From Phycisphaeraceae bacterium (GTDB lineage Bacteria > Planctomycetota > Phycisphaerae > Phycisphaerales > Zrk34), in the NCBI GenBank assembly GCA_028277685.1, contig JANQFT010000599.1:1-45271 (forward strand): a stretch of 45,271 nucleotides of DNA, given 5' to 3'. Below, piece by piece: positions 26,395-44,423 of this stretch. The notes below the pieces were generated by a model. The model ran no database searches. It saw only the letters and a program-made list of their open reading frames with translations, and had not been told where the DNA came from. The translations under genes were made by a program, and so were the position numbers. Numbering within the stretch: the first letter of the stretch is position 1; every line of letters begins with the position of its first letter.

Positions 26395-26561
26395 CCATGT
26401 TGGGTAGTGGTTCCGTTTGAATTCCACGAGCCGCGACTGTGAAGGAGCGGTCGTCGGACCGCAGAAAATGCCGCCATCTTCGTGCGGTTGTGTCGACCCC
26501 TACCTCACGGGCGCGGCGCGTGGAGGACAGTCGGTGCAGACAGACCCACTACCCCATGTTG
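26395..26561 (+). mobile_element. 151-bp palindromic element, copy 1, with 8-bp duplication
   Basis: The element proper is 26403-26553. Its ends are imperfect inverted repeats with consensus GGTMGTGGNTCNGTYTGMA. Flanking direct repeats CCATGTTG at 26395-26402 and 26554-26561 are perfect, and fit a target-site duplication. Inside are further arms with ACGAGCCGCG on the left and CGCGGCGCGT on the right, and a small hairpin with stem GCGGTC and GACCGC. It has no coding capacity. Three other copies of identical length are present in this window. It looks like a MITE whose parent transposase is elsewhere. Confidence 0.85.
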
Positions 26562-28474: not shown

Positions 28475-28551
28475 ACAATCTACCTGTTCCGCGACGTTTG
28501 ACGACGTGGCGGGGCATTGCCTTGCTTGGTTTTCGCCGTGGGAGCCACTCC

Positions 28552-29280
28552 ATGTCCCGCCATAAGCAAAGCGCATTTACGCTGGTGGAATTGCTGGTGG
28601 TCATCAGCATCATCGCGGTGCTGATCGCATTGCTACTGCCCGCGTTACAGAGCGCTCGCGCAACGGTACGTGAGGTGACATGTAACGCAAGCTTGCGACA
28701 GATCGGATTAGTGTGGCGATACTACACGGGCGACCACAATGGGGGTTGGCCGCTCATGCAATGGCGAGCTGGTGGCAGTGTTTACGACAAGTGGAATACA
28801 TTCGAGAAGCGCGGTTTGGAGGTGGCGCTCGATCCGTACTACACCGAGGAAGTTGTTCTCGGGAAAACGGATACGCGACCTATCTGGATTTGTCCACAGC
28901 GCGAACAGATCGACTCGACGCTTCATGATGACAACTCGTATACCGGCCTGCATTACCACTTTTTGCATAATGTTGTTTATCGCATCAAAGCAAACGAGTC
29001 CGTCATGCTGTGGAGAGACGCTTACTTTACACATCACGGCTCCGTGCCGATTCAATGGTGTTCACAGCGCAGCCCGGTCTTGCTTCAAGGCGATACATGG
29101 CATGAGCAAAGCGGCGGCCGTCCCACGCTCTTCATGGATGGGCATACAACGTCATTAACTACGCCACGCTACGCTGGTACCTACGAAGATATCTTCAGTT
29201 CGCAGTCAGCTTTGCACGCGTTGCGAGGCGAAGGACCGCACGGCAACAAATCTGGGGACTTCGCATTGTCTGAAAATTGA
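28552..29280 (+). CDS. Type II pseudopilin-like protein 2
   Basis: The protein has 242 residues from ATG 28552, preceded by GGGAG at about eight bases. The mature start [20 protein letters not shown] is the pseudopilin helix; the residue before the cut is Ala rather than Gly (HKQSA), which prepilin peptidases can tolerate. Near the C-terminus lies HEQSGGRPTLFMDGHT, an extended form of the H-X9-DG region. It is encoded between PEP-CTERM protein 2 and the glycoside hydrolase. The pseudogene at 32635-32841 preserves a close relative of its C-terminal section. Confidence 0.93.
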   Translation: MSRHKQSAFTLVELLVVISIIAVLIALLLPALQSARATVREVTCNASLRQIGLVWRYYTGDHNGGWPLMQWRAGGSVYDKWNTFEKRGLEVALDPYYTEEVVLGKTDTRPIWICPQREQIDSTLHDDNSYTGLHYHFLHNVVYRIKANESVMLWRDAYFTHHGSVPIQWCSQRSPVLLQGDTWHEQSGGRPTLFMDGHTTSLTTPRYAGTYEDIFSSQSALHALRGEGPHGNKSGDFALSEN

Positions 29281-32968: not shown

Positions 32969-33119
32969 GGTAGTGGGTCAGTTTGAACCCTACGAGCCGC
33001 GACTGTGAAGGAGCGGTCTTCGGACCGCAGGACATACCGCCATCTTCGTGCGGTTGAGCCGACCGCTACCTCACGGGCGCGGCGCGTGGAGTCCGGTCGG
33101 TGCAAACGGACCCACGACC
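32969..33119 (+). mobile_element. 151-bp palindromic element, copy 2
   Basis: It has the same orientation and length as copy 1. The left end reads GGTAGTGGGTCAGTTTGAA and the right end TGCAAACGGACCCACGACC. Internal GCGGTC, TTCG, GACCGC at 33013-33028 would give a cUUCGg tetraloop if transcribed. No flanking duplication is visible (TTCAACCA before, AGTTTTCC after), so the site may be old or rearranged. By eye it agrees with copy 1 at well over 80 percent of positions, without gaps. Confidence 0.83.
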
Positions 33120-33476: not shown

Positions 33477-33634
33477 CCCATTTACGAATGCTCATTGAAC
33501 AGCTATTTGTTGCATGAGTGCTGCTGGTCGGCTAGAGTTGACCAACAAGCCAGTGGGCAGTGCCGGTGACGCGTCGGCATGCCCGCGGTTTCTTGTCTGA
33601 TGCACTTCACAGGAACATATGGGGAGAATATCTT

Positions 33635-34363
33635 GTGGGCATGAAGTGTCGTTCTGCCTTCTCTTTGACCGAACTGATTGTTGTGGTGGCGGTCGTGACG
33701 CTTTTGCTCGGTGTGTTGGTGCCTTCGCTGCAGGCAGTTAGGGAAACGTCCCGCGCGGTCGTGTGTAACTCAAATCTGCATCAGATTCAGGCGGGGTGGT
33801 TGCTTTTCATCGGGCAAGAACCTGGAGGACGTATTCCATACACGGTCAATTACGGCAGGTACATGCTGTCTACAACAGGAAACCACAACTGGCTGGAAGC
33901 GCTCGCGGTTGTATTTCCGGAAATGCCCCAGCAATACAGTCAGAATACGAATTCATTCAACGTATGCCCCCAAGCCTTGGCTGAATACGGCAGTATCAAT
34001 TACAACGCTGCCTACTGGGGCTATGCAATCAATATGTGGTGGTCGAACCGGACTCAGGAGTACAACGAGCATAAGAGCTGGTATGCCATCGCACAGCCAC
34101 ACCGTTACCCTTGGTTCGTGGATAGCCATGTTTACGAGTCGACCACTGGATTCAAGGGAACTGCCTGGACACCACACAGGAAATATGATCCCAGCAAGTT
34201 CGATGAGGACGAGCAGGTGTATTGGGGTATCGGGGCCATACACGCGAACGGCACCAGGACGAACGTCGCATATGCTGATGGCAGTTCGAGGTCCGCGCCG
34301 ATGAGCCGAGTCCGTGAGGGGCTCATTGAAAAGGGAAACTATCCCTGGCTGTCACATGACTGA
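33635..34363 (+). CDS. Type II pseudopilin-like protein 3
   Basis: The protein has 242 residues if it starts at GTG 33635, which has GGGGAG eight bases upstream; an ATG two codons later lacks that spacing. A pseudopilin helix begins AFSLTELIVVVAVVTLLLGV, with Ala before the cleavage site and Glu at mature position 5. The C-terminal part carries HANGTRTNVAYADGSS, an extended H-X9-DG element. There is no LacI or hydrolase gene on this strand nearby, unlike pseudopilins 1 and 2. Its last 25 bases overlap the 3' end of the convergent PEP-CTERM gene. Confidence 0.91.
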   Translation: MGMKCRSAFSLTELIVVVAVVTLLLGVLVPSLQAVRETSRAVVCNSNLHQIQAGWLLFIGQEPGGRIPYTVNYGRYMLSTTGNHNWLEALAVVFPEMPQQYSQNTNSFNVCPQALAEYGSINYNAAYWGYAINMWWSNRTQEYNEHKSWYAIAQPHRYPWFVDSHVYESTTGFKGTAWTPHRKYDPSKFDEDEQVYWGIGAIHANGTRTNVAYADGSSRSAPMSRVREGLIEKGNYPWLSHD

Positions 34364-42691: not shown

Positions 42692-42842
42692 GGTAGTGGA
42701 TCAGTCTGCACCGACTGGCCTTCACGAGCCGCGCCCGTGAGGTAGCGGTCGGCTCAACCGCACGAAGATGGCGGGTATTCTGCGGTCCGAAGACCGCTCC
42801 TTCACAGTCGCGGCTCGTTAAGATTCAAACGGACCCACGACC
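42692..42842 (-). mobile_element. 151-bp palindromic element, copy 3
   Basis: It is the reverse complement of the same element as copies 1 and 2, with ends GGTAGTGGATCAGTCTGCA and TTCAAACGGACCCACGACC on the plus strand. Internal stem bases preserve the cUUCGg hairpin. The flanks CAAATTCA and TACATTCC agree at five of eight bases, so a target duplication is possible but unproven. The rest of 42590-42957 contains no gene. Confidence 0.82.
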
Positions 42843-44256: not shown

Positions 44257-44423
44257 CCAGCCCGGGTAGTGGTTCATTTCGAATCGATAGGCCTCAACGA
44301 ACCGCGCCCGTCAGGTAGCAGTCGGCTCAACCGCTTAAAGAAGACCGTATTGCCTGCGGCCCGACGACCGCTTCTTCACCGTCGCGGCTCGTAGGATGCA
44401 AACTGAACCACGACCCCAGTCCG
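44257..44423 (-). mobile_element. 151-bp palindromic element, copy 4, with 8-bp duplication
   Basis: The element proper is 44265-44415, in the same orientation as copy 3. Flanks CCAGCCCG (44257-44264) and CCAGTCCG (44416-44423) differ at one base, in the same register as the perfect duplication of copy 1. One terminal repeat has two extra changes from the consensus, so this copy is the most diverged. It is inserted between the unknown gene and the kinase, 67 bases before the kinase start. Confidence 0.82.

Follow-up and report, generated by a model that had tools for sequence, protein, structure and literature searches.

The closest described relatives of the element analysed here are the REPINs of Pseudomonas fluorescens, defined as pairs of inverted REP sequences separated by a less conserved spacer, predicted to form a hairpin in single-stranded DNA or mRNA, and linked to a Y1 transposase, the RAYT (Bertels and Rainey 2011, PMC3116915). 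In E. coli the RAYT needs mismatches in the REP stem; indeed, its activity is lost once a regular stem is restored (PMC8266576). REP dimers lying regularly inside a second palindrome have been described in A. variabilis and H. neapolitanus, a report which found no such palindrome without its REP (Di Nocera 2013, PMC3733652); the class 3 TnpA-Y1 proteins, which have Planctomycetes among their hosts and carry HxH and Y----Q motifs, are encoded by genes that have repeats of atypical secondary structure on their flanks (Quentin 2018, PMC6006769).

The window (the whole stretch of DNA analysed, 45,271 nucleotides) is one contig, C404, of a Phycisphaeraceae genome (G000; 4.29 Mb in 651 contigs, 88% complete), and it contains four copies of a short element whose features are collected in Table 1. 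This element is probably a composite, in which an IS1-like MITE multiplies a REPIN lodged within it, the hairpins being the recognition structure of a RAYT, and a Y1 domain found inside valyl-tRNA synthetase (ValRS) being the likely cognate enzyme. As a nested element it is a variation on a known kind, REP dimers in palindromes having already been reported (PMC3733652).

Table 1. Features of the composite element, of the long elements sharing its ends, and of the inverted repeats hosting this REPIN family (positions in the window unless a contig is named).
Feature	Position or source	Strand	Remarks
Focal element, copy 2	32969..33119	+	IS1-type MITE with REPIN inside; target duplication not recognisable
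Left terminal inverted repeat of focal copy	32969..32987	+	GGTAGTGGGTCAGTTTGAA
Right terminal inverted repeat of focal copy	33101..33119	-	GGTCGTGGGTCCGTTTGCA (as read on -)
REP arm A of focal copy	32992..33018	+	ACGAGCCGCGACTGTGAAGGAGCGGTC; in other Phycisphaerales without MITE ends
REP arm B of focal copy, inverted	33061..33087	-	GACCGCTACCTCACGGGCGCGGCGCGT on + strand
Outer stem, left side	32992..33001	+	ACGAGCCGCG; partner 33078-33087, one mismatch in focal copy
Tetraloop hairpin	33013..33028	+	GCGGTC-TTCG-GACCGC; 3' edge of arm A and first spacer bases
Copy 1 of composite element	26403..26553	+	exact 8-bp target duplication CCATGTTG each side
Copy 3 of composite element	42692..42842	-	target duplication not recognisable
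Copy 4 of composite element	44265..44415	-	target duplication CCAGCCCG / CCAGTCCG, 7/8
Long IS1-like element L047	C209:3922-6390		duplication TAAAGCAC
Long IS1-like element L048	C543:1014-3587		no duplication seen
REPIN host kind 1	own genome, L112, L139		IS1-type ends; L139 with one REP arm and 7/8 duplication
REPIN host kind 2	G005		TAGAGCGGTTTCA
REPIN host kind 3	own C245 and other loci		CTGAGAACGCGTGTGAGAAG
REPIN host kind 4	G006		GAGCATTCTCAATCCAA
REPIN host kind 5	L135, L146, L106		ATACCGCGCACGAAAAGTTAATGCGAT-like

The outer layer is delimited by 19-bp terminal inverted repeats of the form GGT[A/C]GTGG[G/T]TCAGTTTGAA, a pattern which, with up to two mismatches allowed, is matched 52 + 58 times, the backward control giving 3 + 7. 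Segments of the element number 50 in its own genome, and both ends are present in 31 of them; counted instead as segments with a terminal end and more than 60 bp (contig-end fragments counted), they number 42. These full-length copies, about 141-152 bp long with their 19-bp ends, are non-coding, and one is truncated by a contig end; all 31 two-ended segments were aligned, and 30 were used for the study of target duplications, the remaining one sitting at a contig end. Exact 8-bp duplications flank 14 of the 30 copies with flanks and none of 870 cross-pairs, and agreement at 7 or more of the 8 positions is seen in 19 of the 30 and in a single cross-pair of the 870.

A search for the end pattern retrieved two elements of about 2.5 kb bounded by the ends of the MITE, on contigs C209 and C543, whose IS1-type transposases score 34.6 and 52.4 bits with PF03400 (cut-off 24.1). 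In the genome-wide search with this model the C209 match alone gave 21.1 bits, under the 24.1 cut-off, and beyond these two contigs no further PF03400 match was found in the own genome. With the NCBIfam IS1 model (NF033558) the two transposases reach 70 and 82.1 bits, below its cut-off of 100; the elements are termed here IS1-like, a name resting on sequence models of which the Pfam cut-off was passed and the NCBIfam one was not. Members of the IS1 family duplicate 8-9 bp of their target, a length which the 8-bp duplications of the MITE copies and of the C209 element fit, the C543 element being without one. Judged by its sequence, the repeated element qualifies as a MITE, being short, non-coding, bounded by terminal repeats, flanked by duplications of fixed length and accompanied by candidate autonomous partners with the same ends (C209 and C543). 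Like the MITEs of the IS1 family, it is short and non-coding and has the ends and duplication length of a resident IS1-type transposon; it differs from them in that its cargo is a REPIN. In this scheme the outer MITE would be moved in trans by an IS1-like DDE transposase making 8-bp duplications. Passenger genes are present in both long elements: the one on C209 encodes a Fic protein, and the one on C543 has ORFs with no Pfam match, two of which overlap. The IS1595 family was considered as a source of the ends and rejected: PF12762 matches occur only on contig C387, with a stop in frame, and the C387 stretch examined contains no match to the ends.

The inner layer consists of two inverted, non-identical REP arms of about 27 bp around a spacer, and its distribution differs from that of the ends. 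A search of 61 genomes with the element gave matches in 16 (own included), those outside the own genome being short and chiefly confined to the REP arms (e.g., ACGAGCCGCGACTGTGAAGGAGCGG); in genome_contigs, the exact arm pattern was found in at least 100 stretches. Among the 80 loci listed, one bears the label Cyanobacteria, and the titles of the other 79 read Phycisphaerae, Phycisphaerales, Phycisphaeraceae, Planctomycetales or Planctomycetota. These 80 loci (613 kb) hold 158 REP motif sites; of the neighbouring sites no more than 200 bp apart, 45 pairs are inverted (+-), 4 are ++, 2 are -- and none is -+, giving 45 inverted against 6 tandem pairs at short distance, as in a REPIN, and the commonest spacer between them is 26 bp. 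In six relatives, picked for having matches, the REP counts are 69, 78, 21, 52, 98 and 15 (backward control 0 each), so that the high copy number of a REPIN, 15 to 98 matches per genome, is also observed, some of them in arrays. Tandem-like REP arrays, many with 84-bp steps, are seen in G035 (L075, L076, L077).

The own genome contains 82 matches to the REP motif (backward control 5), of which 71 belong to MITE copies. Of the other 11, C69 has one, C186, C245 and C460 have two each, and the last four are matches with two mismatches, a number close to chance expectation. The REPINs on C186, C69 and C245 have their first spacer bases in common with the MITE copies, so that the REPIN passenger of the MITE looks local. 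By reading, the motif does not belong to the GTAG-tagged REP superfamily, since GTAG precedes CGG only in arm B of the own genome, arm A having GGAG and the arms B of the relatives CAAG or GAAG. The likeness to the REPINs of P. fluorescens, as described in PMC3116915, extends to the inverted REPs, the less conserved spacer, the hairpin and the tie to a Y1 transposase (RAYT); here, in contrast, the sequence is different, most of the genomic REPs are carried by a MITE of DDE type, and a tRNA synthetase houses the likely RAYT.

The two layers are thus found apart as well as together, a separation established by comparing sequences. The REP is absent from both long elements, on C209 and C543, and REPs devoid of the MITE ends occur in other genomes and on C186 and C460 of the own genome. 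These observations weigh against one alternative, in which the element would be a single plain MITE whose inverted repeats are of unusual length, its interior deriving from the insertion sequence and its hairpins being a by-product of palindromy; it accounts for the near-palindromic interior, and the target duplications and common ends do show a spread of MITE type, but an interior motif missing from both candidate parents and living elsewhere without the ends makes it highly improbable. The composite reading proposes instead that at some point a REPIN belonging to this lineage settled between the ends of the MITE, as the spacer type common to other REPINs of the own genome suggests, and that the MITE then multiplied it, most of the own-genome REP matches now residing in MITE copies. 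Among 50 inward-facing end pairs (45-800 bp, in 77 own-genome loci) none could be recognised as an empty MITE of the family: 43 contain the REP, and the seven without it, 392-620 bp long and with flanks that do not match, look like chance or decayed pairs. No empty MITE being seen in these stretches, the entry of the REPIN into a pre-existing MITE is a proposal.

Nesting of this REPIN family is recurrent, yet it is a minority state. By reading, the hosts are five kinds of inverted repeat (Table 1), of which the IS1-type one is the only kind whose transposon nature is shown here. Outer inverted repeats above the 99% control surround 4 of 50 REPIN doublets in the genome_contigs sample (60-bp flanks), 3 of 44 with 110-bp flanks, and 3 of 11 doublets in the sample from the six relatives; in loci chosen as MITE matches the yields are 16/29 in the own genome, 3/21 in G005 and 5/14 in G006, low figures which indicate that the test misses worn ends, for example those of L112. 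The situation resembles that of A. variabilis and H. neapolitanus (PMC3733652) in that a REP dimer lies in a second palindrome, empty ones being unrecognised in the stretches examined; the host palindromes of that report, as far as its cited parts go, were not identified as transposons, whereas here inverted ends, 8-bp duplications and matching elements with a transposase are present. In the open-licence literature searched, nothing was found uniting REPIN, RAYT and MITE, nor anything on repetitive extragenic palindromes in Phycisphaera.

That inverted repeats of at least five kinds serve as hosts to the REPIN family also raises the possibility of a mutualism, complementary to the composite reading, in which binding of the REP by a RAYT would help the composite, for instance in repair or replication at the palindrome, and the REPIN would be more to its carrier than a passive passenger. 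The conservation of the element, which is highest in the REP arms, would agree with this; strong conservation may equally mean recent amplification, however, and 46 of the 50 REPINs from genome_contigs show no outer repeat above the 99% control (in a test which misses worn ends), so that such a benefit appears doubtful.

A preliminary description of the focal element had drawn attention to its hairpins, and their letters are as it gave them: copies 2 and 3 read GCGGTC-TTCG-GACCGC, while the loop is GTCG in copy 1 (GCGGTC-GTCG-GACCGC) and in copy 4 (GCGGTC-GTCG-GGCCGC, where one pair is T.G). Of the 31 full copies in the genome, only a minority of 6 have the TTCG loop, the others having GTCG (14), GTCA (5), ATCG (3), GCCG (2) and GTTG (1). 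The hairpin is also not part of the order-wide REP motif, its 3' half being spacer, which differs in L112 and L233. The conservation beyond the termini, likewise claimed, is borne out by the mean column identity over the 31 copies: the left REP arm (arm A), the best conserved stretch of the element, reaches 97.6% and the right one (arm B) 92.5%, the spacer 88.3% and the terminal repeats 87.9 and 85.3%. The larger stem formed by ACGAGCCGCG and CGCGGCTCGT, with variants, is present, but its arms are not compensated as had been stated: CGCGGCGCGT in copies 1 and 2 and CGCGGTTCGT in copy 4 amount to a mismatch and a wobble.

The alignment of copies that the same description had proposed as a check on covariation gave a negative answer, none of the 21 interior pairs of its structure varying on both sides among the 31 copies. 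In that structure the paired cells (96.0%) equal those of column shuffles (96.0%), and the covariation score is 0.077 against 0.076; sliding the structure by 1-3 columns lowers pairing to 28-55%, as expected of a structure read off these very sequences. An alternative hairpin tested on the 31 copies had the same negative outcome, and RNAalifold, applied to the same alignment, predicted 33 pairs with one double change, in one sequence and near the terminal repeat. The covariation test on 31 copies therefore lends no support to selection on pairing, being in any case a test of little power, as the stems vary little and are conserved in sequence. The mismatch requirement of the E. coli RAYT (PMC8266576) suggests that perfect pairing need not be selected, a possible reason for the absent covariation.

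These data bear on the proposal that the interior acts as RNA, a transcribed hairpin whose role in terminating transcription or protecting the upstream mRNA would explain the conservation, a role hypothesised for REPs in the literature (PMC3733652). Folded as RNA, the focal copy is indeed very stable (-84 kcal/mol, z = -4.66, equalled by 0 of 200 shuffles), its opposite strand folded as DNA giving z = -2.84 (equalled by 1 of 200), and the four window copies sit between long ORFs taken as genes, though a 122-codon ORF of uncertain standing overlaps copy 1. Against an RNA role stand the 31 copies without compensatory change, the lack of any Rfam match reaching the gathering score in the window, and the departures from pairing, which show no clear strand bias: GU-type departures affect 10 of the 21 interior pairs (33 cells) and AC-type ones 8 of the 21 (9 cells), and with both types occurring neither strand can clearly be singled out as the transcribed one, the cell counts, which share ancestry, being left unused as evidence of strand bias. 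A purely intergenic RNA role is moreover difficult to reconcile with REP arms translated in frame as ValRS peptides in other genomes. On this balance the RNA proposal is quite improbable, and the hairpins, whose stems lack compensating mutations, are better read as a recognition sequence for a DNA enzyme than as a conserved RNA. The suggestion of a transposase substrate in the preliminary description holds in kind, the interior being a REPIN, tied to HUH/Y1 enzymes; the enzyme concerned would be different from the IS1-like DDE mover of the element. In the composite reading, a RAYT-like HUH transposase would recognise the hairpins in folded single-stranded DNA, as suggested by the REPIN form, the REP-flanked Y1 genes and the known RAYTs.

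Five Y1_Tnp matches, one of them below cut-off, were found in the own genome, and this REP accompanies solely the one on C460, where it lies on both sides, the other four loci having none. The C460 reading frame is a ValRS, Pfam tRNA-synt_1, Y1_Tnp and anticodon domains being contained in a single open frame, 969 residues long and cut by the contig edge. Corresponding ValRS-Y1 frames in G008 (1037 residues, start missing) and G005 (1268 residues) both include the Val tRNA-binding arm, and in all three genomes the Y1 gene is flanked by the same REPs. A Y1 search covering 201 genomes from the order, with the own genome among them, gave a match at 1e-10 in 53, and 30 loci were fetched from this set, to which the smaller counts of Y1 loci refer. 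In 15 of the 30 (own included), belonging to five families, the Y1 domain lies at one and the same synthetase position, with 227-280 residues between two synthetase anchors; in the other 15 a synthetase flank was not found, one of them having no readable frame. The REP motif is present at all 15 embedded loci against 6 of the 15 others, and within the ValRS it is translated in frame, giving peptides such as SRDREGA and PLPHGRGS; PLPHGRGS or PLPDGRGS is found in 14 of the 15.

All 15 embedded proteins match the valS model, and RAYT and IS200 models weakly; with the NCBIfam RAYT model NF047646 the embedded domains all match, with E up to 0.001, and the own-genome domain, at 38.1 bits, falls under the curated cut-off of 80. 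The HxH motif and the tyrosine are found in 15/15 domains and Y----Q in 14/15. In the AlphaFold model of the Y1 domain the mean pLDDT is 67.6, with a core near 90, and the best Foldseek match of this model is 4er8, a RAYT with the REP hairpin bound (E 8e-5, TM 0.50 by target); the predicted fold, together with the HxH and catalytic tyrosine residues of all 15 domains, points to an HUH fold. By their described features, the class 3 TnpA-Y1 proteins (PMC6006769) have in common with these domains the Planctomycetes hosts, HxH, Y----Q and flanking structured repeats; the embedding in a tRNA synthetase seen here goes unmentioned in the main text of that study, from which the terms 'tRNA synthetase' and 'valyl' are absent, and which discarded a few unexpectedly long proteins. 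In the open-licence literature searched, nothing was found linking valyl-tRNA synthetase or valS with REP sequences or RAYT.

Eight further genomes were taken for having no match in the Y1 search or for having REPs, and synthetase frames were readable in seven of them (none in G006). Five of the seven have a linker of 36-44 residues and no insert; the other two carry a different RAYT at the site, at 85 and 94.9 bits, above the curated cut-off, with flanking peptides TGILPV / RQDACATG in G060 (L321) and TGVSPV / GRDARATD in G024 (L324). Inserts, empty linkers and a second RAYT indicate that the synthetase site is polymorphic and was entered by two RAYT classes. In a FastTree of the 30 Y1 domains, midpoint-rooted and read for topology only, the embedded domains are not one clade, a pattern compatible with single as well as multiple insertions, between which this tree cannot decide. 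The abundance of REPs does not follow the distribution of this Y1 clade: G024 (98 REPs) and G006 (78) have no match at 1e-10, while G001 and G007, which do match in the Y1 search, have no match to the element. This speaks against a simple pairing between enzyme and REP, the presence of REPs at all 15 embedded loci speaking for it.

The likely cognate enzyme of the REP would be the in-frame Y1 domain of ValRS, REP-flanked in the own genome, a pairing which is predicted. Tentatively, a two-enzyme arrangement may be envisaged for the Phycisphaerales, in which REPINs recognised by a ValRS-housed HUH transposase are spread further through DDE-type MITEs, the ValRS loop being a recurrent docking site for at least two RAYT classes. 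A REPIN, mobile DNA of the single-strand HUH kind, multiplied by a DDE-type element would have a route for spreading without an enzyme of its own. The synthetase-embedded transposase, a side result, may outweigh the nested element in importance: if expressed as one protein, it would tie the survival of the transposase to an essential gene, and the long-standing puzzle of RAYT persistence would become directly testable.

A few minor observations can be added. Some copies of the element contain, or have beside them, another palindromic repeat, which is GTAGGTCGGGGCCTGCCCCGAC-like (L014, L019, L022, L027, L283, L099), and a variant of it, GTAGGTCCGGGCCTGCCCGGAC, occurs three times near the weak, below-cut-off Y1 match on C361 (L099). 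The derivative L051 (C4:2695-2780) is 86 bp long, with both ends and an 8-bp duplication, CAAGCGCT, its REPIN being cut down to scarcely more than one arm. Finally, two ORFs of the window near the elements, 33560-34363 and 28498-29280, have a prepilin-type N-terminal methylation motif, that of the former scoring slightly under the Pfam cut-off.
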